Below are positions 475 to 56,557 of a DNA stretch of 64,000 nt, in pieces. Positions within the stretch are counted from its first letter, which is position 1, and every line of letters begins with the position of its first letter. A model generated the notes under the pieces. The model searched no databases. It had not been told where the DNA came from and worked only from the letters and a program-made list of their open reading frames with translations. The stretch comes from Chryseobacterium joostei (GTDB lineage Bacteria; Bacteroidota; Bacteroidia; Flavobacteriales; Weeksellaceae), in contig NZ_CP033926.1 of the NCBI RefSeq assembly GCF_003815775.1, positions 2,046,001-2,110,000 of the forward strand. Direction: 5' to 3'. The position numbers and the translations under genes are program-made.

Positions 475-1044
475 TTATTTTACTATAATTAACAGGGTGT
501 TCAAAAGAATTTTAATATCATTTTTAAAAGACAAATGTTCCAGATATTCCAGATTCATCTTTACTTTATGCGGAAATAATACTTCATCATTGTACTTCAA
601 GGGATCTTCTTGTTTTTTCAAAAGATTTTCTTCATCTCTGTATACTATACTTGCTTCACAGGTTAATCCAGGTTTTAATTCCAATACTCTCCTATCATTA
701 CCTTTAAGTTTATCATAGTATCCTTCGATATCAGGTCTCGGCCCAACAAAGCTCATATCTCCTTTTACAATATTGAACAGTTGAGGAAGTTCATCTAGTT
801 TGAACTTTCTGAGAACTTGTCCGATTCTGGAACAATTCTTTGTTTTTTGGTGAATTGTTTTAAACTTAAAAATGGTAAAAACCTTTCCATATTGTCCAAT
901 TCTTTTTTGAAAAAAAATACCATTAGAAGATGTGTCAAAGCTCGCAATGATAAATAAAATAATCAGTAGTGGCATCAGAAAAACAGTCAGAATTATCGCA
1001 AAGATAAAATCAAAAAGAATTTTCCAATATTTATACTGATTCAT
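475..1044 (-). CDS. Small sugar transferase (monotopic phosphoglycosyl transferase family)
   Basis: This 189-residue protein belongs to the bacterial sugar transferase family (PF02397), which moves a sugar-1-phosphate from a UDP-sugar to undecaprenyl phosphate at the inner membrane face. A hydrophobic re-entrant helix spans about residues 11-34. The motifs FQKRIG (45-50), FKFKTI (59-64), the catalytic pair Asp84-Glu85 in LDELPQLF, and VGPRP follow in order. After VGPRP it departs from the PglC type: it has LKPGLTCEAS where the other copy at 9487-10092 has [12 protein letters not shown]. It may therefore use a different sugar or have another role. It sits downstream of the aminotransferase with a 16-base gap. 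The family is certain; the substrate is unknown. Confidence 0.85.
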   Translation of the reverse strand: MNQYKYWKILFDFIFAIILTVFLMPLLIILFIIASFDTSSNGIFFQKRIGQYGKVFTIFKFKTIHQKTKNCSRIGQVLRKFKLDELPQLFNIVKGDMSFVGPRPDIEGYYDKLKGNDRRVLELKPGLTCEASIVYRDEENLLKKQEDPLKYNDEVLFPHKVKMNLEYLEHLSFKNDIKILLNTLLIIVK

Positions 1045-1060: not shown

Positions 1061-2197
1061 TTAAGATCCGAAATAGGAATTGATTACTTTCAATATTCTT
1101 TCTCTGTCTTCGTCTGACAAATTAGAACCTGAAGGCAGGCATAGTCCATTATCAAATAACTTTTCAGAGATATTTCCACCATAATATGGAGCATTTGCAA
1201 AAACAGGCTGCAAGTGCATTGGTTTCCAAAGTGGTCTAGACTCAATATTATCTTCTAAAAATGCCATGCGTAATCCTTCTCTGTCTTTCCCAGTAAGTTC
1301 AGGATCTACAATGATTGCTGAAAGCCAGTGATTTGAATAAAAGTCACTTTCCGGTTCAGAAAATACGGTTACTCCATTTATATTTTTGAAAGTTTCTACA
1401 TAAAAGTCATGCATAGCTCTGCGTGCTTCCACTCTGTTATTAAGAACTTCCATTTGCCCTCTTCCGATACCTGCTACAATATTACTCATTCTATAATTGA
1501 AACCAATATGAGAGTGCTGGTAATGAGGGGCATTATCTCTTGCCTGTGTTGAAAGGAAAACGGTTTTATCTTTATCTTCCTGTGTGTGACAAACCAAAGC
1601 TCCACCACCTGAAGTTGTAATGATTTTATTTCCGTTGAAGCTCAGCACACCGAAACGTCCAAATGTTCCACAAGCTTGCCCTTTATAAGTAGAACCTAAA
1701 GCTTCCGCAGCATCTTCAATGATTGGAATTTGATATTCTTCTGCAATGGCAACAATTTGTTCCATTTTTGCAGGCATACCATATAAATGAACAACAATGA
1801 TAGCCTTAGGCTTCTTGCCTTTTTGTATTCTGTCTTCAATAGCTTCTTTTAAAGCTTTAGGACACATGTTCCATGTCTCTGGTTCGCTATCAATAAATAC
1901 GGGATCAGCTCCACAATATGCAATAGGATTGGCAGATGCAGAGAATGTCATTGATTGACAGATTACTTCATCCCCGTGTTGTACACCGCATTCTATAAGG
2001 GCAAGGTGAAGCGCTGCTGTACCCGCAGAAAGAACGGCTACTTTTGTATTTCTTCCTAAAAACTTCTCAAGGTCTTCTTCAAACCCGTTCACATTAGGAC
2101 CTAGTGGTGCTACCCAGTTTTCTTCGAAAGCTTCGTTGATATATTTTAATTCATTACCTCCCATATGTGGAGAGGAAAGCCAAATTTTTTCAGACAT
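1061..2197 (-). CDS. pglE: DegT/DnrJ/EryC1 aminotransferase, PglE-like (UDP-4-keto sugar 4-aminotransferase)
   Basis: This is a PLP-dependent sugar aminotransferase of 378 residues. The N-terminus (SSPHMGGNELKYI at 8-20, then APLGPNVNGFEE) closely resembles Campylobacter PglE, which makes UDP-4-amino-4,6-dideoxy-GlcNAc from the 4-keto sugar with glutamate. The PLP lysine is Lys191 in SFNGNK, and Asp162 in IIEDAAEALG should bind the pyridine nitrogen. The 4-keto substrate would come from the WbpM/PglF-type dehydratase at 24256-26184, the first gene of the same operon. Two PglD-like acyltransferases lie directly upstream in the operon. The family is certain, and the bacillosamine-pathway assignment is a strong inference. 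Confidence 0.9.
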   Translation of the reverse strand: MSEKIWLSSPHMGGNELKYINEAFEENWVAPLGPNVNGFEEDLEKFLGRNTKVAVLSAGTAALHLALIECGVQHGDEVICQSMTFSASANPIAYCGADPVFIDSEPETWNMCPKALKEAIEDRIQKGKKPKAIIVVHLYGMPAKMEQIVAIAEEYQIPIIEDAAEALGSTYKGQACGTFGRFGVLSFNGNKIITTSGGGALVCHTQEDKDKTVFLSTQARDNAPHYQHSHIGFNYRMSNIVAGIGRGQMEVLNNRVEARRAMHDFYVETFKNINGVTVFSEPESDFYSNHWLSAIIVDPELTGKDREGLRMAFLEDNIESRPLWKPMHLQPVFANAPYYGGNISEKLFDNGLCLPSGSNLSDEDRERILKVINSYFGS

Positions 2198-2213: not shown

Positions 2214-2816
2214 CTAATTATTAAGACTGTTTATTTTAATCACTCTACCTGGATTCCCAACGACAACTCCTCCATCCGGGATATCCTGTAAAATTACACT
2301 TCCTGCCCCAATAGTACACCATTTTCCAATGTTAATATTTTGAATAATTGAAGCTCCTAATCCAATATGTGTACCTTCTCCTACCACTACGTTTCCTGCT
2401 AAAGCAGCATTTGGTGAAATATGGGCAAAATCACCAATTTTGCAGTCATGATCTATAGATGAGTTTGTATTAATAATACAGTGTTTTCCAATATCCACTC
2501 CGGAATTAATGGATACGCCTGCCATAATAACAGTTCCCTTATCAATAGTAGTACGTAATGATATATTTGCACTAGGATGGGACAATGTTAAATAATTAAT
2601 ATTGTGATTTTTATGGGCTATCTCTCGTCTAGTCATATTATCACCAATAGAAATTATCATATCTAAGGTATTGCTTGGAATTTCATGCATTACATTATAG
2701 CCCAAAAATACTTGTTTATGAAAGTCTATATCAATAAATGCTTCTATTGATACTTTATTTTCTTCTGCTATCTCAGCAACAACTTTTCCATGTCCGTTAG
2801 CTCCATATAAAAACAT
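2214..2816 (-). CDS. pglD: PglD/NeuD-family sugar O/N-acyltransferase (left-handed beta helix)
   Basis: The 200-residue protein has the two-domain build of PglD/NeuD. A short Rossmann-like N-terminal domain (LYGANGHGKVVAEIAEE, 3-19) is followed by a hexapeptide-repeat beta helix from about residue 75, with repeats such as KGTVIMAGV, IGKHCIINTN, IGDFAHISPN and VGEGTHIGLG. The likely catalytic His is in NTNSSIDHDC. PglD acetylates the 4-amine of UDP-4-amino-sugars using acetyl-CoA. It lies just upstream of the PglE-like aminotransferase, the same pairing as in Campylobacter. The neighbouring ACP cassette leaves open that it accepts a larger acyl group. The ATG at 2814-2816 is used; the next gene upstream ends 3 bases away. 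Confidence 0.87.
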   Translation of the reverse strand: MFLYGANGHGKVVAEIAEENKVSIEAFIDIDFHKQVFLGYNVMHEIPSNTLDMIISIGDNMTRREIAHKNHNINYLTLSHPSANISLRTTIDKGTVIMAGVSINSGVDIGKHCIINTNSSIDHDCKIGDFAHISPNAALAGNVVVGEGTHIGLGASIIQNINIGKWCTIGAGSVILQDIPDGGVVVGNPGRVIKINSLNN

Positions 2817-2819: not shown

Positions 2820-3479
2820 CTATTGTTTAATTATGGTTACCTTTTCTTTATATCTGTAAAAAACAGTTTCATTATCTGTTACATTTTTATCAATGACCAT
2901 TCCTGCTTGAATTGTATTATTAGAACCAATTGCTATAGATGGAATAACAGTACTTCTAATTCCAAAAAAATTTTTCTCTCCTATTTTTACATTTCCTGCC
3001 AGACCTGCAGTAGATAAGAAATTAAAACTTCCTATTTCACAATCATGGCTAATAAAACTATAAGATGTAATAAGATTAAAGTTTTCTATTTTACAATTTG
3101 GACCGATCACTGTATTTGGGTAGACAACATTTCCTTTTCCTAATTTTGCTGATTTGGATATTACTACTGAAGGATGGATAATATTAGGAAAGTCTAAACT
3201 TTCAAGGTCCAGTTCGCTTACAATTTTGCTTTTACCCTCTGGACTTGCAAAACCAAAAATATAAGCAAAATCTGATGAAAAATGATGATCTGCAATGGTT
3301 CCTAAATAAGGAGCATCGAATCCATATTTTTCGGACTTTAATTTAAAATCTTCCACATCATCATTTAAAAATCCATGAATAGAAAATTTTTGGTCAGGAT
3401 TTAGTTTTTGAATATCCTCTAAATATGAAATAACTTCCGACGCTACCGCACCACCACCTATAAAAATAATTTGCTTCAT
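2820..3479 (-). CDS. Second PglD/NeuD-like hexapeptide acyltransferase
   Basis: This 219-residue protein shares the architecture of its downstream neighbour. It has an N-terminal nucleotide-fold segment (IIFIGGGAVASEVISYLED, 4-22) and a C-terminal left-handed beta helix with hexapeptide repeats (SAKLGKGNVVYPN, IGPNCKIENF, IGSFNFLSTA, IGEKNFFGIR). A His in SYSFISHDCEIG matches the catalytic position. The sequence is clearly diverged from the 2214-2816 protein, so this is not a recent duplication. Two such enzymes side by side imply two acylation steps or two acceptor sugars. With an acyl-carrier-protein cassette directly upstream, this copy is a good candidate for transferring a non-acetyl group. 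That function is inferred. Confidence 0.82.
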   Translation of the reverse strand: MKQIIFIGGGAVASEVISYLEDIQKLNPDQKFSIHGFLNDDVEDFKLKSEKYGFDAPYLGTIADHHFSSDFAYIFGFASPEGKSKIVSELDLESLDFPNIIHPSVVISKSAKLGKGNVVYPNTVIGPNCKIENFNLITSYSFISHDCEIGSFNFLSTAGLAGNVKIGEKNFFGIRSTVIPSIAIGSNNTIQAGMVIDKNVTDNETVFYRYKEKVTIIKQ

Positions 3480-3491: not shown

Positions 3492-4088
3492 TTACTCGTA
3501 AATATAAGATTCACCATGTCCCGGATAGATTGTCAAACCTTTTAACAAGTGATCATATTTTTCTATACTTTCTTGATATTGCTTTTTGGATCCTGTTGGC
3601 AAATTGGTCACAATCCGACTTCCTTGAAGTAAAAAATCTCCTGAAAAAAAGGAATTTTCTAGAGATATGCTTATTGAAGAATCTGTATGCCCCGGAGTTC
3701 TAAAAACTTCGAAATTTAAATTAATCCAAGAGAATTTCCCCTCATTTATTAAAATATCTGCCTGCTGTACTACCAAATTAATTTGATTGTGAAATATAGC
3801 AAGATTCTTTTTTGGATTGGGTAATCTCTCCGAGGTTTTATCAGAGGCAATTACCTCAATTTCAGGAAACTGACTACGTAAATAATTAACTCCTAAAATA
3901 TGATCAAAATGCTCATGAGTTAAAAAAATAAATTTGGGAATTACAGCATTCTTTTCAAAATAATCCAATAGTCTATCATCATTTTCAGTACCCGGATCAA
4001 TAACAATTGCTAGATTATTCTCAGGGTTAGTGATAATATAAGTAACAGAATCTATTGGTGTATTTTCAAATTTCTGTACTGTAAACAT
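3492..4088 (-). CDS. Metallo-beta-lactamase-fold hydrolase (glyoxalase II-like)
   Basis: The 198-residue protein has the metal-binding signature THEHFDH (His58, His60, Asp62, His63), then RTPGHTDSS, FFSGDFLL and the final YPGHGE His. These are all the ligands of a dinuclear MBL hydrolase. Glyoxalase II relatives cleave thioesters. Position next to two SDR reductases, KAS III and two acyl carrier proteins suggests a thioesterase or proofreading role in the acyl cassette. Its start shares the A at 4088 with the stop of the SDR gene upstream, so translation is probably coupled. No signal peptide is seen, so it should be cytoplasmic. The fold is certain; the substrate is inferred from context. 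Confidence 0.85.
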   Translation of the reverse strand: MFTVQKFENTPIDSVTYIITNPENNLAIVIDPGTENDDRLLDYFEKNAVIPKFIFLTHEHFDHILGVNYLRSQFPEIEVIASDKTSERLPNPKKNLAIFHNQINLVVQQADILINEGKFSWINLNFEVFRTPGHTDSSISISLENSFFSGDFLLQGSRIVTNLPTGSKKQYQESIEKYDHLLKGLTIYPGHGESYIYE

Positions 4089-4831
4089 TAGCCCGTTATA
4101 TTTATACTTCTACCACCGTCAACGGTAAGTTGTTGTCCTGTAATCCATCTTGACTGCTCAGAAAGCAGAAAACCCACAGCTTCTGCAATATCATTGGGCA
4201 GGCCAATACCTAGTGGATATTGTGCAGACATTCTATTACTTACTTCTTCGTTTTCAAAAATACTTTTGGTCATTTCAGTAATAACAGCTCCTGGTAAAAC
4301 AGAATTTACACGTACTTTTGGAGCTAATTCTACAGCTAAGCTGCGCATTAATCCATCTAATGCAGCTTTTGAGGACCCATAAGTACTCATTGCCTTTGCT
4401 CCTCTATTACTGATATTACTTGAAATTAATACCACATTATTAAGTGCTGAGTTATTTGCCTTTTTATTGCAAAGAAGCTTTATAATCGTATTGGCTGAAA
4501 ATACATTAGTTTTAAAAGTCTCCAACATAAGATCTTGGCTCACTAATTTTAAAGGAACCATTTTCATAAATCCTGCACAGTGTACAAATTTTTCGATGGT
4601 AATATTATTTTCAGCAATAAAAGCCGGAATGTTTTTTTCTAAACTATCTAAATCTGAAAGATCAAGCGGAAGGGTATAAACAGAATTTTCTGTAGAGCAT
4701 TTTGCCTTTAGAGCTTCTAGCTTTTCAGTATTTCTTCCACTTAAAATAATATTATATTGCCTGGAAAGCACAATAGCTATTTCCTCACCTATTCCTGCCG
4801 TAGCGCCAGTTAAAAAAAGAGTTTCTTTCAT
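4088..4831 (-). CDS. SDR-family oxidoreductase (FabG-like)
   Basis: A classical short-chain dehydrogenase of 247 residues. The NAD(P)-binding glycine motif is TGATAGIG (8-15). The catalytic residues are Ser138 in VLISS, Tyr151 and Lys155 in YGSSK, and the C-terminus ends in the usual TGQQLTVDGG. It most resembles FabG-type 3-oxoacyl-ACP reductases. Together with the KAS III and ACP genes upstream in the operon it could reduce a short beta-ketoacyl-ACP to a 3-hydroxyacyl-ACP. A sugar reductase role is the alternative. It is followed by the MBL hydrolase with a one-base overlap, and the upstream SDR ends 9 bases before its start. Confidence 0.88.
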   Translation of the reverse strand: MKETLFLTGATAGIGEEIAIVLSRQYNIILSGRNTEKLEALKAKCSTENSVYTLPLDLSDLDSLEKNIPAFIAENNITIEKFVHCAGFMKMVPLKLVSQDLMLETFKTNVFSANTIIKLLCNKKANNSALNNVVLISSNISNRGAKAMSTYGSSKAALDGLMRSLAVELAPKVRVNSVLPGAVITEMTKSIFENEEVSNRMSAQYPLGIGLPNDIAEAVGFLLSEQSRWITGQQLTVDGGRSINITG

Positions 4832-4840
4832 AAAATTTTG

Positions 4841-5602
4841 TTATTGGGCAGTAAAACCACCATCTACCGATAAAATAGTACCAGTTACCCATTTACCCAT
4901 ATCGGATAAGAGATAAGTAATCCCATATGCTATATCTTCTGCTTCTCCTAATCCAAGAGGGTGCAGTTGATTTAGACGATTATTGTATTCATTATCAAAA
5001 GATCCGGAAACATCATCAAGCATTTGGGTTTTTATAAATCCAGGAGCAATACAATTTACACGAATATGTTTTGGTGCTAATTCTATAGCCAGAGATTTAG
5101 TGATACCATGCAATGCAGACTTAGACATTGCATATGCTACATTTGCAGCAGATCCAACCAATCCGTATACTGAAGAAATAAATACAATAGATGGATTTTC
5201 CGTCTTATAATTCTTATGTTTTGTGAAGATCTTTGCCAGTTCTAAAGCAGCAACCGTATTTACTTTTAAAACTTTATCTACAGTATCTGTATTTAATGTT
5301 TTCAATGGAGATAAATAAGGTATTCCTGCAATATGAACCATCCCATCAAGGGGTCCAAAGGTTTTAATCTTATCCTGCACTGGTATTTTAATTCCATGAC
5401 TATCAGACAAGTCTATTGCTAAATAATCACATTGATCATTACAAAGGCTAAGAGTTTCTTTTAAAGCATCTTCATTAATATCTAACAAAAGAAGCTTTGC
5501 ATTTATCGATGATAAATACAAAGCTGTAGCTTTTCCTATTCCAGAACCAGCACCTGTTATAAGGATTGCTTTTTCTGAAAAGTCCAAGAAGTTTTTATGC
5601 AT
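4841..5602 (-). CDS. SDR-family oxidoreductase (FabG-like), second copy
   Basis: A 253-residue short-chain dehydrogenase with TGAGSGIG (16-23), catalytic Ser143/144, Tyr157 and Lys161 (YAMSK), and the terminal TGTILSVDGG. It is a distant relative of the SDR that follows it, and the two differ in most positions. Its start lies 8 bases inside the end of the acyl-carrier-protein gene upstream, which suggests translational coupling with that ACP. A natural reading is that it acts on acyl groups held by the ACP. In the Pseudomonas syringae viosamine island an SDR (VioR) and a KAS III (VioS) make the 3-hydroxybutyryl group of a modified amino sugar. Here the same job is inferred, not shown. Confidence 0.88.
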   Translation of the reverse strand: MHKNFLDFSEKAILITGAGSGIGKATALYLSSINAKLLLLDINEDALKETLSLCNDQCDYLAIDLSDSHGIKIPVQDKIKTFGPLDGMVHIAGIPYLSPLKTLNTDTVDKVLKVNTVAALELAKIFTKHKNYKTENPSIVFISSVYGLVGSAANVAYAMSKSALHGITKSLAIELAPKHIRVNCIAPGFIKTQMLDDVSGSFDNEYNNRLNQLHPLGLGEAEDIAYGITYLLSDMGKWVTGTILSVDGGFTAQ

Positions 5603-5816
5603 TTTGTTTGCTTAAAATTAAATTAGATAAGCCATCAATTGTTTTTGCATCTGCAATCTCACTGTTAGTTAATGACACTTTGTATTCATCATCAGCTAAA
5701 GCAATAATAGAAAGCATTGTTAATGAATCCCAAGCTTCAAATGAATTTAATTCATCAGAAGGGTTTACACTGTCTACCTCCATTATCTCTGCAATTTGTT
5801 CCAAAAAATCTTCCAT
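5595..5816 (-). CDS. Acyl carrier protein (second of the cassette)
   Basis: A small acidic protein of 73 residues with the four-helix carrier-protein layout. The phosphopantetheine serine is Ser31 in EAWDSLTMLSI, preceded by the usual hydrophobic helix I and SDELNSF loop. It is not the housekeeping AcpP: the DSL site is preceded by Trp and the sequence is distinct from the other carrier protein at 6903-7133. It lies between the KAS III gene (20-base gap) and an SDR gene (8-base overlap). It probably holds the acyl chain built by the KAS III and reduced by the SDR. Confidence 0.88.
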   Translation of the reverse strand: MEDFLEQIAEIMEVDSVNPSDELNSFEAWDSLTMLSIIALADDEYKVSLTNSEIADAKTIDGLSNLILSKQNA

Positions 5817-5835
5817 GATATGATATTTAATATTT

Positions 5836-6903
5836 TTATTTATAAATTAATTTACAAAAGTCTAAGTTCCCAAGGTTCATAATAATTGTTCCCCAAGTTA
5901 ACCCTACTCCAAAGCCAGAAAAACAAACTTTCATTTCGGAGTGTTCTAATTGATCTCCAAGATTAAATGTGGTAACAACGGGTATTGTCACTCCACTTGA
6001 ATTCCCAAAATTTTCCACTACATTAAAAGGTAGTTTATCTCTACTAACTCCAATTTTATCTGCTAATTTTTGCAACATAAAACGGTTTGGCTGGTGAAAA
6101 AGAAAATAATCAATAGTATCTACATTGTCATTAGATGACTCAACTATATTTTTGATCTGTTCAGGAACTTTGGTTTGTACGAAATTGAAAACATTATCAC
6201 CTTGCATCACCAGATGGTTTTTACTACGCTTATTTCCAAAAGTATCTTCGTACAATTCGGAAGTTTCTTCTGTAATAGGCATTCTAGCTCCACCTGCAGG
6301 TACATTTAATGCCATTGCTCCAGACCCGTCCATCCTGATCTCTCCTATAATAGAGGTAGATTCTGTTGTATTTTCAATAATGGTAATTGCTGCTGCATCT
6401 CCAATTAATGGATTGCTATTTCTATCAAATTTAGAAACTTTCGGACTTAGAACGTCTGCATTACACAAAACAACTTTATTAATTCCAGGATTGTTCAGCA
6501 ACATAAAACTTTGCTGCAGCCCTACTACGAAACCGGCACATCCTTGATTAATATCTAGGCAGTATACTTTCTCATCCAATCCGTATTTGCCATGCAATAA
6601 ATTACTGGTTGGCGGCATAATATACTCAGGACTTTGACTTACAAATAGTATTGCATCAATAGAATCTTTGTCTAATAAATTATTTTCAAACAAATAATCT
6701 AACCCTTTTACCACCAAGTCAAAGCTAGTAGTAGATTCATCAGCAACCACTCTTTTTGATTTAAAGCCCATTGCTGCTTTTAGCTTTAATGATTTTGCTT
6801 CTGAGAAACTGTAATTATGCATTTCATCTTCAAACAAAACTTCATTTGATGGCAGAATGCTTAATATTCCCGTGATCTTTTTATTTGAAAAATCAATTTT
6901 CAT
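5836..6903 (-). CDS. 3-oxoacyl-ACP synthase III family protein (KAS III, FabH-like)
   Basis: A thiolase-fold condensing enzyme of 355 residues. The FabH-type triad is complete: Cys122 in INQGCAGF, His270 in LFHQPN and Asn301 in NFGNSSG. FabH condenses acyl-CoA with malonyl-ACP to a short beta-ketoacyl-ACP. Housekeeping FabH is about 330 residues, and this copy is longer and lies inside a capsule operon. Flanking ACP genes (one overlapping by one base at 6903) make a dedicated role likely, such as a C4 3-oxoacyl group for sugar acylation. Related enzymes also move acyl groups to alcohols or amines, so direct transfer to a sugar cannot be ruled out. Confidence 0.87.
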   Translation of the reverse strand: MKIDFSNKKITGILSILPSNEVLFEDEMHNYSFSEAKSLKLKAAMGFKSKRVVADESTTSFDLVVKGLDYLFENNLLDKDSIDAILFVSQSPEYIMPPTSNLLHGKYGLDEKVYCLDINQGCAGFVVGLQQSFMLLNNPGINKVVLCNADVLSPKVSKFDRNSNPLIGDAAAITIIENTTESTSIIGEIRMDGSGAMALNVPAGGARMPITEETSELYEDTFGNKRSKNHLVMQGDNVFNFVQTKVPEQIKNIVESSNDNVDTIDYFLFHQPNRFMLQKLADKIGVSRDKLPFNVVENFGNSSGVTIPVVTTFNLGDQLEHSEMKVCFSGFGVGLTWGTIIMNLGNLDFCKLIYK

Positions 6904-7133
6904 TACTGTACCCCGTTCTTTTTGATTAGAGCTTCGATGGAATCAACAGATTCAAAATTTTCAGGTAAAATATCTGTTCCATCTATTGAAATCCCGAAAG
7001 ATTCATCCAACTCTGTAACCAAAGTAATTAAATCAAACGAATCCAGCATTCCTTGAGAGATAAAGTTGGTTTCAGTACCAAAATCAAACTCCGGGCGAAT
7101 TCCGTTTAGTATATCAATAATTTGACTCTTCAT
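6903..7133 (-). CDS. Acyl/peptidyl carrier protein (first of the cassette)
   Basis: A 76-residue acidic carrier protein. The attachment serine is Ser32 in QGMLDSFDLITLV, a site that resembles DltC and other stand-alone peptidyl carriers more than AcpP. The gene overlaps the end of the GNAT-like gene by 20 bases and shares its last base with the KAS III start. It therefore sits in an adenylation enzyme / GNAT / carrier order. This suggests that the adenylation enzyme at 7953-9479 loads an acyl or amino acid onto this carrier, as DltA loads DltC. The loading partner is inferred from order and overlap. Confidence 0.87.
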   Translation of the reverse strand: MKSQIIDILNGIRPEFDFGTETNFISQGMLDSFDLITLVTELDESFGISIDGTDILPENFESVDSIEALIKKNGVQ

Positions 7134-7953
7134 ATTTTTTGTTTTTATTTATTAAAATCAGGTTGTGCATATCTTCTTCTGCAAACCCGAAATGTTTATA
7201 TCTTTTTATAGCGTTTTCGTTACTTTCAATTACCCAAAACAATTCCCGCTTCACATTTTCTCCTAAATTAAAAAAAAGTTGAATAAGCTTTGATCCAATT
7301 TTCTTTTCTCTATAATTAGGGTGTACAAACCAATATCTTAAATGACTGGTTATACCGTGAGATTCAAAAATTATAAACCCTTGAATTTCATCATTGTCTG
7401 AAAAGTAGTATGCATTCTTATTGGTAATAAAATGATCTATCTCAGCCCCTGAGGGTATTCGTTCGACAAATTTATCAAAATATTTATTATAAATTTTTTG
7501 AATTTCAGGTTTCTTATCCTCAGTTAGTAAATGAATTCCTTCAAAATTAACTTCATTTGTCTCTGAACGCATTTTATTCATTCTTATCATTGAAGAATAT
7601 TCATAAAATCCATTTTCAAGAAAAACTTGTTTTACATTTTCCAAATATTGTGAATTCCCAGCCGTTTCAACAGATATTTCACCACTAAAGTTTATGGAAA
7701 CATATTCCAATATTGTTTTTAATGCAGCGATTTCCGATACTATAAAATAAAATCTTGAAAAACCGTCATCTTTCGTTATCAAAAAACATGCCTTATCCGT
7801 CTTGAATACTTCAATTTTATTTTCATTTTGAAGTTCCTTGAATTGTGTTTCAGAAATAAAAAAATTAGTTTTCATTTCTTTACTTTTTAATCTGAACAAT
7901 TCATTTTTTATATCAGAAAATGTAAAGTTTAAGAGTCTTTCCATAGTCATCAT
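7114..7953 (-). CDS. GNAT-fold N-acyltransferase-like protein
   Basis: The 279-residue protein has a C-terminal GNAT domain (about 135-275). Its acyl-CoA pyrophosphate loop is in HPNYREKKIGSKLI, followed by the YKHFGFAEED element typical of motif B. The N-terminal half is not recognised and may be a degenerate second GNAT domain. The start is uncertain: ATGs at 7953, 7950 and 7944 are all possible, and the first overlaps the stop of the adenylation gene. It overlaps the carrier-protein gene downstream by 20 bases. Because of that pairing it may transfer a carrier-bound acyl or aminoacyl group to a sugar nucleotide. The acceptor is unknown. Confidence 0.75.
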   Translation of the reverse strand: MMTMERLLNFTFSDIKNELFRLKSKEMKTNFFISETQFKELQNENKIEVFKTDKACFLITKDDGFSRFYFIVSEIAALKTILEYVSINFSGEISVETAGNSQYLENVKQVFLENGFYEYSSMIRMNKMRSETNEVNFEGIHLLTEDKKPEIQKIYNKYFDKFVERIPSGAEIDHFITNKNAYYFSDNDEIQGFIIFESHGITSHLRYWFVHPNYREKKIGSKLIQLFFNLGENVKRELFWVIESNENAIKRYKHFGFAEEDMHNLILINKNKKYEESNY

Positions 7954-9479
7954 TATGAGTTTGCTTTCTGATTTAGATAAGCTCGATCTATTTTTCCATT
8001 TGGATTTCTTGGCATTTCATCATATCTGATGTAAACCGTTGGAATCATATATTTAGGTAAGCTTGCCAACAGTTCTTTTCTGAAAACGGCAGCTTCAATA
8101 TCTGTAGCATTTTCGTAATACAGAACAATTTCCTTTGACATTCGATTATAAACACAACAGGCATTTTTAGCAATTTTAAGAGTATTTACAATAATATGCT
8201 CAATTTCTCCTAGCTCTATTCTATATCCCTGATGTTTAATCAAAGTATCTTTCCTTCCTTTGAATATAATTTCGTTTCTATCATTTAATGCAACTATATC
8301 TCCTGTTCTGTAAATTACTTCCGGATAATGAGAATTCAAAGGATTCTGAACAAAAGCCGCCTGTGTTTTTTCCGGATTATTATAATACCCTAGAGCTAAA
8401 GAGCTTCCTCTTACGCATAATTCTCCTTCTTCACCTTTCTCTGCTAGTTTATCTTCATCTGTAATGATTAAGACATCAGTATTTCTATATGGTATTCCGA
8501 TTGGAAGAGGTTCGTTATCTTCAAAATCTCGATCTACAATAAAATAAGTACAATCTAGGGTAATTTCAATAGGGCCGTAAAGGTTTGCAAATTTTGTATG
8601 GGTTAAGTTTTTCTTCCAGTAATTAAATTGTTTTGTAGGGAACACCTCCCCTGCAAACCAAACTAATTTTAATGAATCCAGATTAACTTTTGTCAATAAA
8701 TCCATATTGGCAATATTCACCATAATAGTTGGAACCCAGAATATGAAACTTACTTTTGTTCTTTGCATTTCCTCTAAAATCTTAATAGGAAACGCCGCCA
8801 AATTTTCTGGTAATACAACGATGCAGCTTCCTTTTGAAATCAACATGCACAGTTCATAGCTGAAAATATCAAAAATTACCGGAGAAAGAGAACCTATAAC
8901 TTCATTATCTGAGAAATTGAAAATTTCATCAGATACTTCGATAAAATCTACAAAACTTCTATGATTTAAGGCTACACTTTTTGGAGTTCCTGTAGAACCT
9001 GAAGTATTAATAACGCAAGACATATCAGTATCTATACTTCTCTTCTGAAGTCTATCCAATAAAACATGATCATTGCCTTCAATATCAAAATTCAATTCAT
9101 CTATTAAAATAATTTTCTCCGAATCAAAAATAGGATCAATATTTTTTAATAGATTTCTTGTAGTAATAATAAATTCGGGTTTTACAAGCTCTAGAATATT
9201 TACTATACGCTGCTGTGGGCTTTTTACATCTAAATTCAAATAAGCATTTCCACTTATCATGACACCTAAGTCTGCTATTACACAATTAATGGATTTAGGT
9301 AAATAAATAGCAACTGGTTTATTAATAATATCAGACTGTTCCAGAATATAGTTTCCTAAAACGGCGATATTATTATATAATTTTTTGAATGTGATTTCTT
9401 GTTCATTTTCTATAACGGCTACATTATTTGCTTTAAGCTTTACTGTTTCCGCTAAGTATTCAATTAAATTCCTTTTCAT
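7953..9479 (-). CDS. Adenylation-domain acyl/amino acid ligase (DltA-like AMP-binding enzyme)
   Basis: A stand-alone ANL-superfamily ligase of 508 residues. The core motifs are in order: the P-loop TSGSTGTPK (159-167), YGPIEITLD, YRTGDIV, GRKDTLIKHQGYRIELGEIE and the catalytic Lys496 in NPNGKIDR. Length and motifs fit amino acid adenylation enzymes such as DltA (about 505 residues), rather than acyl-CoA synthetases such as the one at 58053-59672. It should activate a carboxylic or amino acid and load the carrier protein encoded two genes downstream. The start at 9479 follows the PglC-like gene by 7 bases. Substrate specificity cannot be read by eye. Confidence 0.88.
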   Translation of the reverse strand: MKRNLIEYLAETVKLKANNVAVIENEQEITFKKLYNNIAVLGNYILEQSDIINKPVAIYLPKSINCVIADLGVMISGNAYLNLDVKSPQQRIVNILELVKPEFIITTRNLLKNIDPIFDSEKIILIDELNFDIEGNDHVLLDRLQKRSIDTDMSCVINTSGSTGTPKSVALNHRSFVDFIEVSDEIFNFSDNEVIGSLSPVIFDIFSYELCMLISKGSCIVVLPENLAAFPIKILEEMQRTKVSFIFWVPTIMVNIANMDLLTKVNLDSLKLVWFAGEVFPTKQFNYWKKNLTHTKFANLYGPIEITLDCTYFIVDRDFEDNEPLPIGIPYRNTDVLIITDEDKLAEKGEEGELCVRGSSLALGYYNNPEKTQAAFVQNPLNSHYPEVIYRTGDIVALNDRNEIIFKGRKDTLIKHQGYRIELGEIEHIIVNTLKIAKNACCVYNRMSKEIVLYYENATDIEAAVFRKELLASLPKYMIPTVYIRYDEMPRNPNGKIDRAYLNQKANS

Positions 9480-9486: not shown

Positions 9487-10092
9487 TTAATTATTACCTT
9501 TAAAACCCTCTGTTGTTACCTGTCCTTCTTGTGAGATTCCCTCTCTAATAAATACTTTTTTAATTGTCAGGAAAAATATCTTGACATCCAAAGAAAAGGA
9601 TAAATGATCTACATACCAAACATCCAGTTCAAATTTTTTTGTCCAAGAAATAGCATTTCGCCCATTCACTTGTGCCCATCCTGTAATACCTGGCCTAACA
9701 TCATGGCGACGCTTTTGTTCATGGCTGTACAAAGGTAAATATTCTGGCAATAATGGACGTGGTCCAATAACTGACATATCTCCTTTTAGAACATTAATCA
9801 GTTGAGGGATTTCATCTAATGAAGTTTTTCGAATAAAGTTTCCGATAGCCGTAAGTCTTTCTGCATCGGACAGGAGATTTCCATTTTTATCTTTCTTATC
9901 ATTCATCGTTTTAAACTTTACTATTTTAAATATTTTGCCGTTTTTTCCAGGCCTTTTTTGAAAGAAAAAAGGTTTTCCTTGATTAGCAAACAAAAGCCCA
10001 ATCATTACAAATAAAAAAATAGGACTAAAAATAATTAAAAGGCTTAACGAAAGGATAAAATCTATGAGTCTTTTAAAAAAGTTTTTATACAT
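9487..10092 (-). CDS. pglC: PglC-like initiating phosphoglycosyl transferase
   Basis: A 201-residue monotopic phosphoglycosyl transferase, the same length as Campylobacter PglC. A hydrophobic re-entrant helix covers about 10-35. FQKRPG, KFKTMND, the catalytic pair Asp93-Glu94 in [24 protein letters not shown] and [14 protein letters not shown] follow. PglC attaches UDP-diacetylbacillosamine to undecaprenyl phosphate. The PglE and PglD counterparts lie downstream and the PglF-type gene at the head of the operon, so it probably starts the repeat unit with a bacillosamine-type sugar. It is 10 bases downstream of the EpsG-like gene. This is the more canonical of the two family members in the locus. 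Confidence 0.9.
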
Positions 10093-12405: not shown

Positions 12406-13542
12406 TTATTTTTTACTCCAAACTACTCGGTTAACGTAATCTGTATAGCTAAGAATAATTCTTACCACTTTTTCTGAAACATTAGGCATTGAATAATCGG
12501 AAACTGGTCTAAAGTTTCTTTCTTCTCCAAGCTTTTGCTGCTGAACCTGAACTAATCCCTGAAGAATTCTTTCAGGTGATAATCCTACCATCATTACAGA
12601 AGCTTCTTCCATTGCTTCAGGTCTTTCATGAGCGTCTCGGATGTTAAGAGCTCTGAAATTTAAAATTGAAGATTCTTCAGAAATAGTTCCACTATCTGAT
12701 AAAACGGCATAACTTTTCATTTGTAATGCATTATAGTCATGAAACCCTAGAGGTTTTAAAAACTGAATTTCAGGACGAACTTCAACATTTTTCTTATCAA
12801 TCATATTTCTTGTACGCGGGTGTGTAGAAACAATGATTGGCATTTTATATAAATCTGCAATTGCATTAAGGCTATCAATTAGGCCATTAAAGTTCTTTTC
12901 AGAATTAATATTTTCTTCACGGTGAGAAGAAACTACAAAATATTTTCTTTCTTCAAGGTTTAATCTTGAAAGTACATCAGAGCTTTTGATTTCAGGCAAA
13001 TAATGGTTCAGTACTTCAAACATCGGTGATCCAGTTTTGATAATTCTGTCAGCTGGAAGCCCCTCTCTTAAAAGATATTCTCTAGCTATATCACTGTACG
13101 TTAAATTTACATCAGCAGTATGATCTACAATTTTACGATTGGTTTCTTCAGGAACTCTTTGATCAAAACAACGGTTTCCTGCTTCCATGTGGAAAATTGG
13201 GATCTGTCTTTTTTTAGCAGGAATTGCACAAAGACAAGAGTTAGTATCTCCTAAAACTAAGAATGCATCAGGCTGAAGTTCTTCCAAAAGCGGATCTATT
13301 TTTATTAAAATATTTCCCACAGTTTCCGTAGCGGTTTTTCCTGCAGCTTCTAAAAAATAATCAGGTTTACGAAGACCTAGATCCTCAAAAAATATCTGGT
13401 TAAGCTCATAATCATAATTTTGGCCTGTATGAACAATTATATGATCTACAGCTTCAGACTTATCTAAAGCCATAAGAACTCTTGCTAATCTAATAATTTC
13501 AGGACGTGTTCCCACGACCGTCATCACTTTTAATTTTTTCAT
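12406..13542 (-). CDS. wecB: UDP-N-acetylglucosamine 2-epimerase, CapG/WbjD type
   Basis: A 378-residue non-hydrolysing UDP-sugar 2-epimerase. The GTRPEIIR motif at 12-19, HTGQNYDYELN, FHMEAGNRCFD, SSHREENIN and SDSGTISEES are all present and define the WecB/MnaA family. With CapE and CapF upstream it forms the classic three-enzyme set that turns UDP-GlcNAc into UDP-N-acetyl-L-fucosamine. In that set CapG/WbjD does the last C2 epimerisation. Order in transcription is capE, small cupin gene, capF, wecB. Length and motifs are normal. Confidence 0.92.
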   Translation of the reverse strand: MKKLKVMTVVGTRPEIIRLARVLMALDKSEAVDHIIVHTGQNYDYELNQIFFEDLGLRKPDYFLEAAGKTATETVGNILIKIDPLLEELQPDAFLVLGDTNSCLCAIPAKKRQIPIFHMEAGNRCFDQRVPEETNRKIVDHTADVNLTYSDIAREYLLREGLPADRIIKTGSPMFEVLNHYLPEIKSSDVLSRLNLEERKYFVVSSHREENINSEKNFNGLIDSLNAIADLYKMPIIVSTHPRTRNMIDKKNVEVRPEIQFLKPLGFHDYNALQMKSYAVLSDSGTISEESSILNFRALNIRDAHERPEAMEEASVMMVGLSPERILQGLVQVQQQKLGEERNFRPVSDYSMPNVSEKVVRIILSYTDYVNRVVWSKK

Positions 13543-13565
13543 TTGTAAATATTTACATGTATTTT

Positions 13566-14684
13566 TTAGACTTCAACAAAATAAGTATCGGGATCTTCAG
13601 CATTAAATAGCTCATTGATCCAGAAAATAGTATAAAGATCTTCTTCTCCTATGTTTTTAATATTATGAGTATACCAGATAGGCATATCTACGTATGCAGG
13701 CTCATTTCCATCAAGATAGAAGTCTAAAACTTCATCAGTATCTATTTTTCTTAATTGAATTAAAGCCTTTCCTTTTATGACAGCAAAACGCTCAATTTTT
13801 CTTGTATGAAAATGATTCCCCCTAGTTATTCCAGGAACGGTTGTTGAAAAAGAACATTGTCCTCCAATTCCTAATCTGATAACTTCTACGAAAGCACCTC
13901 TCGGATCTATATTTTGTTTAAACTTAACAGGATAATGATTTGCCATATCAAAATAGCAGCGGAATGTATTGAACAAATTTAATTCAAAACTGGTATTCAA
14001 TTCTGGAACTTCTCCGTTATCAAAATATAAATTCTTATATATTTCCAGTTTAGCTAATACTTCAGAAACTTTATTTACTGAAGTATGAGGAACTTCATAT
14101 AATTCAATTGTTTCTGATCTTTCAATCTGAGTAATAATTTCTTGAACAAGTTCTCCTACATAAATAAGTTTTACTTCCCCATCATTATCAATCACCGGAT
14201 TTTCTCCATGGGTAAGTTTATGACAAAAAGTAGCAACAAAAGAATTATAGTTTGGTTTTCCAAAAGGACCAAAAACATTAGGAATAATCATTCCTGTAAA
14301 TTTTCCGCCAGATTTCTTCGCCCATTCAAGTAATAACTCTCTTCCTTCTTTTTTTGATTTACCATAAAGATTATCCCTTTCTTCCTGAGAAGATGAAGAA
14401 AATAAAACGTGCGATTGAGAATTTGTTTTTTCTAAAGAAAGTCTTAGCTTTTTTACTAAATCTAAGTTAGTGTTATAGATTACTTCTGCATCCTCATGTC
14501 TATTCATGGCTGCAAGATGTACAATAACATCACATTGTTTTACAAAATCGTCTAATTTAGTCTCATCTTCAAAGTAGCTTTTATCAAAATCTACTCGTTC
14601 ATATTTTTCAGGACTTAATCCTAAAGTATTATATAAATGGGACCCTACGAAACCGTTTTGCCCAGTAATTCCTATTTTTTTCAT
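13566..14684 (-). CDS. capF: CapF/WbjC-type bifunctional SDR reductase with C-terminal cupin
   Basis: The 372-residue protein has an N-terminal NAD(P)-binding SDR domain (GITGQNGFVGSHL, 5-17; YGKSKKE) and a C-terminal cupin domain (TRGNHFHTRKIERFAVIKG). This fusion is diagnostic of CapF/WbjC, which epimerises C3 and reduces C4 of the UDP-4-keto sugar made by CapE. The cupin histidines that hold the metal are present. It overlaps the small cupin gene upstream by one base at 14684 and lies 23 bases before wecB. Function is well supported by both domain order and neighbours. Confidence 0.92.
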   Translation of the reverse strand: MKKIGITGQNGFVGSHLYNTLGLSPEKYERVDFDKSYFEDETKLDDFVKQCDVIVHLAAMNRHEDAEVIYNTNLDLVKKLRLSLEKTNSQSHVLFSSSSQEERDNLYGKSKKEGRELLLEWAKKSGGKFTGMIIPNVFGPFGKPNYNSFVATFCHKLTHGENPVIDNDGEVKLIYVGELVQEIITQIERSETIELYEVPHTSVNKVSEVLAKLEIYKNLYFDNGEVPELNTSFELNLFNTFRCYFDMANHYPVKFKQNIDPRGAFVEVIRLGIGGQCSFSTTVPGITRGNHFHTRKIERFAVIKGKALIQLRKIDTDEVLDFYLDGNEPAYVDMPIWYTHNIKNIGEEDLYTIFWINELFNAEDPDTYFVEV

Positions 14685-15094
14685 TAATTGTTTTTAAAAT
14701 ATTCTAATGGAAATCTATATTCATCATCAATTTCTCCAAGGAAGTAATCTGACAAAATCAAAAGTTTACTATTTTCCTCTAGCGATTGAACAGAGGTAAT
14801 GTTACCTGCGGGAATATGCAAAAAGTCCAATTGATCTGTATTTAATTCGAAGTAAAGCGGTTCTAGAGTTGGCGATGGTGTATCAAAATCATCAATTTTT
14901 ATAACTCCAATTCTAAATTTACCTGACATACATGCAAACCACCTTTGTTCTATTTTATGCCCTTGCCATCCTCTTATAAAATCTGTGGATGCATTTTCTA
15001 TAGTATAAATTCTTTTAACAAGAGAAGCATCATAAGTATTATTGTATGTAATGATTCCTCTTTCGTCTTGAAATTTATTTCCTTTTAGCATCAT
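14684..15094 (-). CDS. Small cupin protein, FdtA/WxcM-like sugar isomerase family
   Basis: This 136-residue single-domain cupin carries DERGIITYNN, RGWQGHKIEQRWFACMSGKFRIGV and HIPAGNITSVQSLE, a layout shared by FdtA/WxcM ketoisomerases and RmlC-like sugar epimerases. Such proteins act on nucleotide-linked 4-keto sugars. Its position between capE and capF, coupled to capF by a one-base overlap, implies that it acts on the same UDP-4-keto intermediate or stabilises a pathway step. CapF already has its own cupin, so the extra one is unexplained. The exact reaction cannot be assigned from sequence alone. Confidence 0.72.
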   Translation of the reverse strand: MMLKGNKFQDERGIITYNNTYDASLVKRIYTIENASTDFIRGWQGHKIEQRWFACMSGKFRIGVIKIDDFDTPSPTLEPLYFELNTDQLDFLHIPAGNITSVQSLEENSKLLILSDYFLGEIDDEYRFPLEYFKNN

Positions 15095-15105
15095 TTCTGA
15101 ATATT

Positions 15106-16140
15106 CTAATATGGATATTGCATTATATCTTCACCAAAAATCTCTTTTCTTATTAATGGTAACGTAGATATAAGTTTTTTTAATCCCTCAACCCCCTGTT
15201 GCTCTGTATTGTGAGAATGATAGTCTTCTATCTTAGATACATCTTCTTCACCTTCAGAGAAATATTTAGCATAATTCAGATCTCGATTATCAGCAGGGAT
15301 TCGGTAGAATTCGCCCATATCTTCAGCTTTTAGCATTTCCTCTCTTGTACATAAGGTCTCATAAAGTTTCTCTCCATGACGCGTACCTATTATTTTGATT
15401 GGAACTTCTTTTCCTGTAAGCTCAATTAATGCTTTTGCCAAATCTCCAATACTTCCAGCCGGAGCTTTATTTACAAATAAATCTCCAGAATTACCATTTT
15501 CAAAAGCAAATAGTACTAAATCAACAGCATCTTCTAAAGACATGAAAAAACGAGACATATTGGGATCAGTAATTGTAATTTCTTCACCTTTTTGAATTTG
15601 ATTCAAAAACAAAGGAATTACAGATCCACGAGAGGCCATCACGTTACCATAGCGTGTAAGACATACCGTCGTTTCTGACAAACTACGAGATTCTGCAACA
15701 GCTACTTTTTCCATCATTGCTTTGGAAATTCCCATTGCATTAATAGGATATGCCGCCTTGTCTGTGCTTAAACAGATTACTTTTTGAACTTTATTAAAAG
15801 CAGCAGCTCTAATCACGTTTTGAGTTCCCTCTACATTTGTTTTTACAGCCTGCATTGGGAAAAATTCACATGATGGAACTTGCTTTAAAGCAGCAGCATG
15901 AAAAATATAGTCGACACCTCGGGTTGCTGGTTCTACACTTACATAATCTCTTACATCACCAATATAATATTTGATTTTGTCGTTTTTGTACAAATTACGC
16001 ATGTCATCCTGCTTCTTTTCATCACGAGAAAATATTCTAATTTCTTTAAAGTGATCTGTTTTAAGAAACCTATTTAAAACAGCGGTACCAAAAGATCCAG
16101 TACCTCCTGTTATAAGAAGTGTTTTATTTTGAATTTTCAT
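15106..16140 (-). CDS. capE: CapE-type UDP-GlcNAc 4,6-dehydratase/5-epimerase
   Basis: An extended SDR of 344 residues. It has GGTGSFGTAVL near the N-terminus, the active-site stretch STDKAAYPINAMGISK, and a C-terminal YRIPADNRDLNY tail typical of CapE/WbjB. It dehydrates UDP-GlcNAc and inverts C5, the first step towards UDP-L-FucNAc. A start 42 bases further upstream (16182) is open. The ATG at 16138-16140 gives the normal family N-terminus (MKIQNKTLLITGG) and lies one base after the stop of the glycosyltransferase gene, so it was chosen. Function is strongly supported by capF and wecB downstream. Confidence 0.92.
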   Translation of the reverse strand: MKIQNKTLLITGGTGSFGTAVLNRFLKTDHFKEIRIFSRDEKKQDDMRNLYKNDKIKYYIGDVRDYVSVEPATRGVDYIFHAAALKQVPSCEFFPMQAVKTNVEGTQNVIRAAAFNKVQKVICLSTDKAAYPINAMGISKAMMEKVAVAESRSLSETTVCLTRYGNVMASRGSVIPLFLNQIQKGEEITITDPNMSRFFMSLEDAVDLVLFAFENGNSGDLFVNKAPAGSIGDLAKALIELTGKEVPIKIIGTRHGEKLYETLCTREEMLKAEDMGEFYRIPADNRDLNYAKYFSEGEEDVSKIEDYHSHNTEQQGVEGLKKLISTLPLIRKEIFGEDIMQYPY

Positions 16141-16141
16141 A

Positions 16142-16948
16142 TTATAGATACTTTCTGTAGATTTTATAAGATTTTTGAACAATTTTATATTTGTGCTTTA
16201 AATTCATTTTCGATGTTGTGGATGATTCGTTATGATAACAAATCAGTTCAGGATCATAAATGATATTTCCATTAACTTTATTTATCTGGCCTGTAAGAAT
16301 TGCTTCTTCACCATATAAAAAGACTTCCTCTGATAGTTTCTCATAATGCTTAAAAAAATTAGGAGTAAGGATATAAAGAGCCCCAATCCCCATATATATT
16401 TTTTTCTTAATAGGATCATGAGGATTAAAACGTCTTTCCGTTGACTTAATCTTTCCTAATATTTTTGCGACAGCAAAATTAGAAAAATAGACATCATATT
16501 TTAACTTCCGTAAAAAGCTCATTTTATCAATAACATGAGGGTTTTCATGACTTCCTTCAGTCGTAATAACATCTGGAGCTATAACCATGTCTGCATCCTC
16601 TGCATGATAAGAAAGAAGTTTTATTATGAAATTTTCTTCAAATGTGATATCATTATTTCCTACAACAAAATAGGTATTATTTATTCCTTTTTTTTGCGCA
16701 AATTCAATACCATCATTTAATCCCTGAAAATATCCTCTATTTTCTTTTTTAATAATAACTACTTTATTTTCACTGATTGATTTCTCCTCTACATATTTTT
16801 TTAAAATATTAAAACTCACATCTGTGGGTGAGTTGTCAACAACCACAATTAAAGTGTTACCATTTATATCTAATAATAAAACATTATCAATATACTTAAT
16901 TGTTTCTTCGTGGGAATTATAGTTCACACAAATAAATGGAATTATCAT
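16142..16948 (-). CDS. GT2-family glycosyltransferase
   Basis: A 268-residue GT-A fold transferase. It starts MIIPFICVNYNSHEET, followed by VVDNSPTD and then NRGYFQGLNDGIEFA, FVVGNNDITFEENF and GIGALYIL, the usual GT2 donor-binding pattern with NND in place of the common DDD. A longer open frame starts at 17041, but the ATG at 16946-16948 gives the family N-terminus and overlaps the upstream stop as ATGA, which decides the start. The protein probably adds one sugar to the repeat unit on the cytoplasmic face. Donor unknown. Confidence 0.87.
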   Translation of the reverse strand: MIIPFICVNYNSHEETIKYIDNVLLLDINGNTLIVVVDNSPTDVSFNILKKYVEEKSISENKVVIIKKENRGYFQGLNDGIEFAQKKGINNTYFVVGNNDITFEENFIIKLLSYHAEDADMVIAPDVITTEGSHENPHVIDKMSFLRKLKYDVYFSNFAVAKILGKIKSTERRFNPHDPIKKKIYMGIGALYILTPNFFKHYEKLSEEVFLYGEEAILTGQINKVNGNIIYDPELICYHNESSTTSKMNLKHKYKIVQKSYKIYRKYL

Positions 16949-56055: not shown

Positions 56056-56237
56056 CTCGATCTCTTTATGTTAAAGTTGAGATAACAGAAAAATATAAAA
56101 GTCTTTCGTAGATCTTATTTGGTTTCTTAAAAGTCTTATATTAGAATTACAAATACATAATATATTGTATTACAAACAAATGCAATAACATTAGACTCAA
56201 GAATAAAAATGTAAGAAAAATTGAATCATAAGAAAAA

Positions 56238-56557
56238 CGAGAAAATCTATAAGCCGGATTTTGTACTTCCTAAGAAGCGCTTGTTATTTATCTACGCTTT
56301 ACATTGCTGCAAAACTTGAGCTGATTACCCCTCGGTTTTCAGGACGAGCCGCCCCTATTTTCATTACTGAAAAGAACCGATATACTTACCATTGCACCGC
56401 AAAGAGTTTACCTGGTTTCACTACAGCCGAACTGTACCTGCTTTCTGTTGCACTTGTCCTACCCTCACGGGTGACGGATGTTATCCGCTTTGCTGCTCTA
56501 TGGTGTCCGGACTTTCCTACCCCTGCCGAAACAGGAATCAACAAGCCGATTTTCTCG
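56238..56557 (-). ncRNA. rnpB: RNase P RNA
   Basis: Read on the minus strand, the RNA has the bacterial RNase P landmarks: the 5' GUAGGAAAGUCCGGACACCAU region, GAGGGUAGGACAAGUGC, the ACAGAAAGCAG segment and a closing AAUCCGGCUUAUAG. The 5' end CGAGAAAAUC (56548-56557) pairs perfectly with the 3' GAUUUUCUCG (56238-56247), forming P1. The 3' end is followed by UUUUUCUU, a likely terminator. Length is about 320 bases. The open frames over it are not genes. Confidence 0.94.

Follow-up and report, generated by a model that had tools for sequence, protein, structure and literature searches.

A conserved gene cassette with an adenylation enzyme, two carrier proteins and a ketosynthase in a surface-sugar operon of Chryseobacterium, and its possible role in amino-sugar acylation

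What would a surface-sugar operon do with a free-standing amino-acid adenylation enzyme, two carrier proteins and a ketosynthase? This question is raised by a 64,000-nucleotide stretch of Chryseobacterium joostei DNA (contig NZ_CP033926.1, positions 2,046,001 to 2,110,000), here called the window, in which eight minus-strand open reading frames (ORFs) run from position 9479 down to 3492, each overlapping the next by 1-20 bases or separated from it by 9-19, as established by ORF calling. Together with the adjoining acyltransferase AT1, they form a cassette of about nine genes within the operon. Our tentative answer, to which we give nearly an even chance, is that the cassette is one free-standing hybrid assembly line making an amino-acid-derived acyl group for a 4-amino sugar.

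The block begins with a stand-alone amino-acid adenylation enzyme (A; 7953..9479, 508 amino acids; Pfam AMP-binding; NCBIfam AA-adenyl-dom, 300 bits) that carries the catalytic Lys496. It is followed by a tandem GNAT N-acyltransferase (7114..7953, 279 amino acids), proposed to cap the amine of a carrier-bound amino acid, and by a first acyl carrier protein (ACP1; 6903..7133, 76 amino acids, Ser32; Pfam PP-binding), the proposed aminoacyl carrier. Next come a beta-ketoacyl-ACP synthase III (KAS III; 5836..6903, 355 amino acids, Cys122/His270/Asn301), which a tree places in an A-linked clade, and a second carrier (ACP2; 5595..5816, 73 amino acids, Ser31), proposed to hold malonyl or acyl groups. 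Two short-chain dehydrogenases/reductases (SDRs) follow, the FabG-like ketoreductase SDR 1 (4841..5602, 253 amino acids, Tyr157/Lys161) and SDR 2 (4088..4831, 247 amino acids, Tyr151/Lys155). The last of the eight is a metallo-beta-lactamase fold (MBL) hydrolase (3492..4088, 198 amino acids, motif HEHFDH), which is GloB-like with a score under the GloB cut-off, has its nearest matches around the hydroxyacylglutathione hydrolases and is a candidate for thioester editing or release. AT1 (2820..3479, minus strand), a hexapeptide-repeat acyltransferase of the PglD/NeuD kind, is proposed to carry out the final acyl transfer to a 4-amino sugar. The Pfam families of all eight ORFs agree with the assigned functions. 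An initial annotation, made from the letters of this DNA, had described the same eight genes in this order and with this tight spacing, and had listed the same complete sets of catalytic residues; both descriptions are borne out.

Comparison with relatives shows that the genes are conserved as a block. Among 173 genomes of the genus, the A enzyme and KAS III occur in the same nine and in none of the others (scan thresholds of 1e-60 and 1e-70), which is more than chance would be expected to produce. In these nine, the A enzyme is at least 72% identical to that of the window; three further matches in the genus, at 29-33% identity and within open frames 1119-3295 residues long, were excluded from the cassette count. 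The order A-GNAT-ACP-KAS-ACP-SDR-SDR-MBL is identical in the seven genus stretches, in locus L006 and in the window (loci are given here by L numbers; the contig of L091 is also that of L007, and likewise L093 goes with L008 and L095 with L009). AT1 follows the MBL gene in five of the nine genus loci, and the remaining four have an AAC(3)-like protein just before the A gene and a NeuD-like gene further up. This split between NeuD-like (AT1) and AAC(3)-like proteins is clean, five versus four, and the AAC(3)-like match shares 24-25% identity with the protein of L014. The eight genes therefore behave as an exchangeable block whose final transferase varies. A sample of 395 genomes from the order contained the A enzyme in four, all within the genus and already known. 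In a phylum sample of 395 genomes (E 1e-85), the A enzyme was found in two and KAS III in one, the KAS III of L101 scoring under this threshold. The block is thus rare at the phylum level.

Related gene sets are spread across many bacterial phyla. A KAS III scan of genome contigs gathered 72 loci, and the rows of the KAS tree, many of them metagenome bins, bear eleven phylum names. Within 7 kb of KAS III, the labels found among the 72 loci were A (69, including a poor match in L062), ACP1 (60), ACP2 (59), SDR (47), GNAT (42), NeuD-like (37), aminotransferase (35), MBL (26), formyltransferase (15) and AAC(3)-like (15). These labels come from hidden Markov models built from our own clusters, and low-scoring ones are unsure (for example, the L056 formyltransferase at 58 bits and the L016 MBL); because ORF calling was mechanical, some small carriers may have escaped it. 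Because the loci were chosen by KAS III, the presence of that protein in them proves nothing. Bacteroides fragilis S82 (L075) and Marinifilum (L012) carry A, GNAT, ACP1, KAS III, ACP2, two SDRs, MBL, NeuD-like protein and aminotransferase in the same order. The divergent L101 (G469), which was found by its A enzyme alone, has KAS, A, GNAT, ACP1, SDR, SDR, ACP2, MBL, NeuD, aminotransferase and phosphoglycosyltransferase genes. For co-conservation with sugar genes, on which the initial annotation had made its proposal depend, the aminotransferase gives a partial check: one is present in the 35 loci counted above and in six of the seven genus stretches, in three of them at only 25-30% identity to that of the window. 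We also considered whether the NeuD-like and AAC(3)-like transferases are mutually exclusive and rejected the idea, since both occur together in 3 of 58 representatives and the association is not significant (two-sided p 0.059).

The ketosynthases of these loci are a group apart. A quick maximum-likelihood tree was built from 92 KAS III sequences, 71 of them from cassette loci. All but one of these, 70 in number, group in a single clade (SH-aLRT 90). Outside it lie all 21 other rows, among them four further KAS III proteins of the window's genome and those of ordinary KAS-ACP-SDR modules in the same Clostridia loci. The exception, L076, is placed outside the clade, and no A label was found within 7 kb of its KAS III. 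Two loci are absent from the tree, L071 because its sequence is partial and L023 because of the length filter. Several Clostridia loci hold both the A-linked and the ordinary kind of KAS III. All 73 KAS rows, from the 72 loci and the window, have the Cys-His-Asn triad. A total of 4,338 proteins match the window's KAS III at E values up to 1e-60, which does not imply clade membership for each. One KAS III with 75% identity is recorded for Flavobacterium covae (P0043). In L064 (151-1374), an ACP2-like domain is fused to an ordinary-type KAS III in one ORF. A second KAS III and SDR pair of the window's genome flanks an ACP2-like ORF (L100:6594-8608; G000:C1:3525593-3527607) and sits among genes that by eye resemble those for glycosyltransferases.

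Two kinds of enzyme would add the cap. The initial annotation was correct in calling the second gene product GNAT-like and left it unexplained; its predicted structure (pLDDT 93) has two GNAT folds in one chain, as in mycothiol synthase, and it gives whole-length matches to tandem GNATs. In our reading of the alignment, its coenzyme A (CoA) loop is R-E-K-K-I-G; several rows have the canonical form, R/Q-x-x-G-x-G/A. In other loci a formyltransferase replaces the GNAT; along the KAS tree the two have switched at least nine times, and in one case (L020) the formyltransferase is fused to a carrier. Counts of caps omit L071, L076 and L077, which have no A label, and the rows used for counting switches also omit L023 and add the window.

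The A enzyme scores 300 bits with the NCBIfam A-domain model TIGR01733, under the cut-off of 317.4 (E 2.4e-89), and this is still its best-scoring NCBIfam model; its top PDB sequence match is LgrA. With the code columns placed on what we take to be GrsA numbering, its specificity letters are D204, I205, Y208, F247, W274, A276, L300, L308, D309 and K496, and to our knowledge the resulting DIYFWALLDK matches no known code. Its bulky pocket letters suggest that the substrate is probably a small amino acid. Most of the 66 A proteins in the alignment, which includes that of the window, belong to one of three code classes, namely DNLF.., DIL/DHL.. and a W class defined by W as the fifth letter. In 59 of the 66, the ninth letter is Asp. 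The equivalents of Asp235 and Lys517, in a numbering that we presume to apply, are present in 64 and 66 of them, respectively, and both in the window. SDRs accompany 27 of 28 W-class loci, 9 of 10 DIL-class loci and 4 of 18 DNLF-class loci, and so the products of these classes should differ in reduction. For ACP1, eight PDB sequence matches were obtained: five carriers named as peptidyl or aminoacyl, two acyl carrier proteins and, as the top match, a 77-residue chain named 'alpha/beta hydrolase fold protein'. ACP2 matched one acyl carrier weakly. These low-scoring matches suit ACP1 for an amino acid and ACP2 for malonate.

As the initial annotation had noted, the block is followed by two PglD/NeuD-like acyltransferases (3479-2820 and 2816-2214) and then by an aminotransferase (2197-1061). 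The second acyltransferase, AT2 (2214..2816, minus strand), lies outside the conserved block and scores 213.6 against the NCBIfam NeuD_NnaD cut-off of 160.8, whereas AT1 scores 137.1. The PDB sequence matches of AT1 are led by PglD-type enzymes and include PglD, perosamine N-acetyltransferase and VioB. AT1 keeps the His that is presumably catalytic in PglD/NeuD acyltransferases, and it has F-Y-R-Y-K-E where AT2 has G-N-P-G, in the C-terminal GNPA-type loop that we likewise assume to be functional in these enzymes. A loop of the form F-Y/H-R/K-F/Y-K-E is found in 14 of 43 NeuD-type rows, namely the window's AT1 and 13 locus proteins, 12 of which share the strand of their cassette, the L042 protein being encoded on the opposite one. 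Such a replacement would fit a donor other than acetyl-CoA. However, it is no requirement, because the NeuD-like proteins of other cassette loci keep the usual loop.

The core of A enzyme, ACP1 and KAS III, the separate KAS clade, and the interchange of GNAT and formyltransferase fit one convergent assembly line with a capped amine. In such a line, the A enzyme would activate the amino acid and load it onto ACP1, where the tandem GNAT, or the formyltransferase of other loci, would cap its alpha-amine. The cap would stop the later gamma-amino-beta-ketothioester from closing to a tetramic acid. KAS III would then condense the capped aminoacyl group with malonyl-ACP2, one or both SDRs would reduce the ketone, and AT1 would move the gamma-acylamino-beta-hydroxyacyl ('statine-like') group to the 4-amino position of a nucleotide sugar, with the MBL enzyme presumably hydrolysing stalled thioesters. 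The initial annotation had also placed a carrier-protein acyl pathway beside amino-sugar genes, and this part stands. Its two loading routes, read as alternatives, are not supported in that form, since A, ACP1 and KAS III travel as one core. The chemistry of each step, like the identity of the amino acid and of the sugar, is our inference from the sequence, and a rival scheme that joins two branches by an amide has known products in other bacteria; for these two reasons our estimate stays slightly below even.

Several observations weigh against the single assembly line. The CoA loop of the GNAT is degenerate in the Clostridia rows of our alignment, and 15 to 19 of 69 loci are without both caps. 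The formyltransferases best match Met-tRNA formyltransferase and ArnA, such that another substrate, sugar included, is possible; the L015 enzyme also matches LgrA, weakly. An SDR label is missing in 25 of the 72 loci, 14 of them belonging to the DN code class (14 of 18 DN loci are without SDR), and reduction is therefore not general. The CoA-stacking Trp (residue 32 in E. coli FabH) is lost in 70 of 70 members of the A-linked clade and also in 20 of the 21 other rows, and thus we rejected the loss of this CoA-binding residue as proof of an ACP-bound starter because it is not clade-specific. Moreover, no KAS pocket positions were found to track the A-code class (p 0.61 for 7 pocket columns versus 252 others, with 29 W, 18 DN and 9 DIL rows). 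Finally, the checks anchored on the A enzyme are the nine genomes of the genus and L101, all other loci having been selected by KAS III.

The strongest competitor, which we consider unlikely on balance, is the scheme with two amide-joined branches. KAS III, ACP2 and the SDRs would make a 3-hydroxyacyl group and the A enzyme and ACP1 an aminoacyl group, which the GNAT would couple to an N-(3-hydroxyacyl)-aminoacyl unit for transfer by AT1 to the 4-amino sugar. This scheme accounts for the two carriers and the SDRs, and an acyl-ACP donor would be in keeping with the degenerate CoA loop that some GNAT rows show. Glycan substituents of this sort are known in other bacteria, and N-acetyl-alanyl amides of Qui3N and Qui4N and the N-acetylglycyl amide of Qui4N are reported (PMC3210612). 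However, where a formyltransferase replaces the GNAT, KAS III stays, as does ACP2 in most such loci, and with a formyl cap there would be nothing for KAS III to do, although these loci were KAS III-selected. Furthermore, the A-linked KAS III clade is distinct from the KAS III of plain hydroxyacyl modules, even where a Clostridia locus has both. The formyltransferase loci, the separate clade and the loci with both kinds of KAS III all favour one assembly line over amide-joined branches.

An improbable alternative, which corresponds to the two routes of the initial annotation, is that an N-capped aminoacyl group and a 3-hydroxyacyl group are independent products destined for two amino positions and moved by AT1 and AT2. 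The window does have two acyltransferases and two carriers, but A, ACP1 and KAS III stay together across phyla, and no AT2 match is present in the genus stretches L091-L093, which keep the block and AT1. More doubtful still is a KAS III that, without condensing, hands the aminoacyl group from one carrier to the other or delivers it to the sugar. Loci without SDR, such as L015 and L017 (labelled only A, formyltransferase, ACP1, KAS, ACP2 and NeuD), would be explained in this way, whereas the condensing triad in all 73 rows and the SDRs of nearly every W-class locus argue for condensation. It is very improbable that the cassette performs a DltA/DltC-like aminoacylation (D-alanylation) of the polysaccharide with the remaining genes serving something else. 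In its favour, A matches the two DltA models (at 239.6 and 257.7 bits) and ACP1 matches DltC (at 28.8 bits), but these scores are far under the respective cut-offs of 559.85, 476 and 68.

Returning to the single assembly line, its extension to the whole set of loci is a more tentative proposition, with a likelihood appreciably below even. It would be a widespread line resembling nonribosomal peptide synthetase (NRPS)-polyketide synthase (PKS) systems, occurring under eleven phylum names and making N-capped gamma-amino-beta-hydroxyacyl groups for surface sugars. Its exchangeable parts would be the A code, the acetyl or formyl cap, the SDR (present or not) and the final transferase (NeuD-like, AAC(3)-like or WecD-like). 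If this is true, the surface glycans of bacteria are decorated with acyl groups of a hybrid peptide-polyketide type, for which routine sugar analysis would not search, and each of the small separate enzymes behind them can be tested individually. A large group of uncharacterised KAS III proteins would also gain a role, and serotype differences in bacteria with such loci might be explained in part.

Some loci differ in their surroundings. In Trichococcus (L026:6500-14902), the cassette adjoins accD/accA, ATP-grasp (carbamoyl phosphate synthase-like) and beta-keto acid cleavage (KCE-like) genes. The accD/accA pair is next to the A gene in L026, and by cluster labels also in L029 and L031; a dedicated malonyl supply was considered and dropped because the pair is several genes away in L027 and L030. 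Planctomycete loci L049, L055, L057 and L060 combine another A code (DVQCTLTIAK, or one with V as its eighth letter) with a WecD-like acyltransferase. Spirochaete and Clostridia loci L046, L048 and L072 sit with GT2 and EamA/SMR-type genes, which suggests a polyprenyl-phosphate sugar and a small flippase route instead of Wzx/Wzy.

The window's operon may produce a capsule or an O-polysaccharide. Its aminotransferase, phosphoglycosyltransferase, UDP-L-FucNAc-type and dehydratase genes are all on the minus strand. The sugar aminotransferase (1061..2197) is LegC-like with 395.2 bits against a cut-off of 420. Two phosphoglycosyltransferases, both below NCBIfam cut-offs, lie at 475..1044 and, directly upstream of the A gene, at 9487..10092. 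UDP-L-FucNAc-type genes, assigned from NCBIfam scores, occupy 12406..16182: WecB/FnlC-like (12406-13542; WecB 241.8, above the cut-off of 210.15), WbjC/FnlB-like (13566-14684; WbjC 248, below 500) and FnlA-like (15106-16182; FnlA 537, below 730). A small ORF between the FnlA- and FnlB-like genes (14684-15094) has no NCBIfam match at 1e-20. A sugar 4,6-dehydratase gene (24256..26184; PseB 192 bits, below cut-off) is presumably of the PglF/CapD kind. By eye, other ORFs of the window were assigned to Wzx, Wzy, Wza and Wzc, and an rmlC-like gene spans the left window end (L099:15904-16449). Two polytopic membrane proteins (10103-11179 and 16945-18195) both look like polymerases by eye, and the same operon has two phosphoglycosyltransferases. 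Elsewhere in the window is an RNase P RNA of bacterial class A (56234-56557).

Among known systems, as far as their available texts describe them, the closest are the O-polysaccharide R-group genes wfpC-wfpG of Flavobacterium psychrophilum (PMC6519341), followed by the viosamine island of Pseudomonas syringae (PMC3927599). The wfp locus is described as having KAS, carrier, ketoreductase and PglD-like acyltransferase genes with fln genes, pglE/pglF and a PglC-like transferase, and its product, by nuclear magnetic resonance, is a 4-N-acyl bacillosamine-type sugar with a 3,5-dihydroxyhexanoyl group; the gene roles are predictions there too (PMC6519341). In contrast to the cassette, the main text names one carrier and two KAS proteins, and no adenylation enzyme, GNAT, second carrier or MBL (PMC6519341). 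In P. syringae, vioS, vioR, acp and vioB are reported to supply a KAS III, a reductase, a carrier and a sugar acyltransferase for N-(3-hydroxy-1-oxobutyl) viosamine, and a vioR mutant loses the modified viosamine; unlike the cassette, the seven ORFs named in the available text include one carrier and no amino-acid activation (PMC3927599). As in these two systems, a KAS III, a carrier and an SDR with intact Cys-His-Asn, Ser and Tyr-Lys residues lie in one operon of the window, with PglD/VioB-like acyltransferases (AT1 by its PDB matches, AT2 by its score above the NeuD cut-off). An acyl group from acetate units only is at odds with the NRPS-type A near ACP1 and KAS III in 69 of the 72 loci. The initial annotation was justified in citing VioS/VioR and DltA/DltC as partial precedents, although it did not cite wfpC-G, the nearest published case found.

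Flagellin glycosylation islands of Enterobacteriaceae, some with one or two carriers, a CaiC-type ligase and FabG beside glycan genes, establish that ligase, carrier and reductase in a glycan locus are already published, at least as the available text presents them (PMC4875605). These ligases are named fatty acid CoA ligases, the text names no KAS III or amine cap, and the product is read as a liposugar (PMC4875605). DltA/DltC likewise comprise a stand-alone A enzyme and a carrier, whereas the cassette scores far under the curated cut-offs. In linear gramicidin synthesis, LgrA initiates with a formylation domain, an A domain and a peptidyl carrier protein, and statine units occur in NRPS-PKS products. 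The cassette resembles these systems in capping the amine of a carrier-bound amino acid, as proposed here, and differs in its free-standing proteins within a polysaccharide operon, its mostly GNAT-type cap and its proposed KAS III extension. Mycothiol synthase MshD (2c27, 1ozp) is 11-12% identical to the window GNAT. The names of the Campylobacter jejuni flagellin-modification genes Cj1299-Cj1308 (FabH2, carriers and an 'amino acid activating enzyme') suggest that they may encode the same parts in a glycan locus, although the literature searched gave no description of them. The NCBIfam KAS model PRK12880 had matches in 9 of 14 control genomes, above cut-off in none and with no Campylobacter among the nine. 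Cj1303 and Cj1307 are mentioned in the available text of one report only as primer sites (PMC3283744). Among the matches listed by a literature search of titles and abstract openings, with few subscription papers, no combination of A enzyme, cap, carrier and KAS III in a glycan locus was found. Neither this search nor the accessible accounts of the closest systems yielded a published A-cap-KAS III combination. We therefore regard the cassette as belonging to the known carrier-based pathways that acylate amino sugars, with an amino-acid starter and a cap as its additions.

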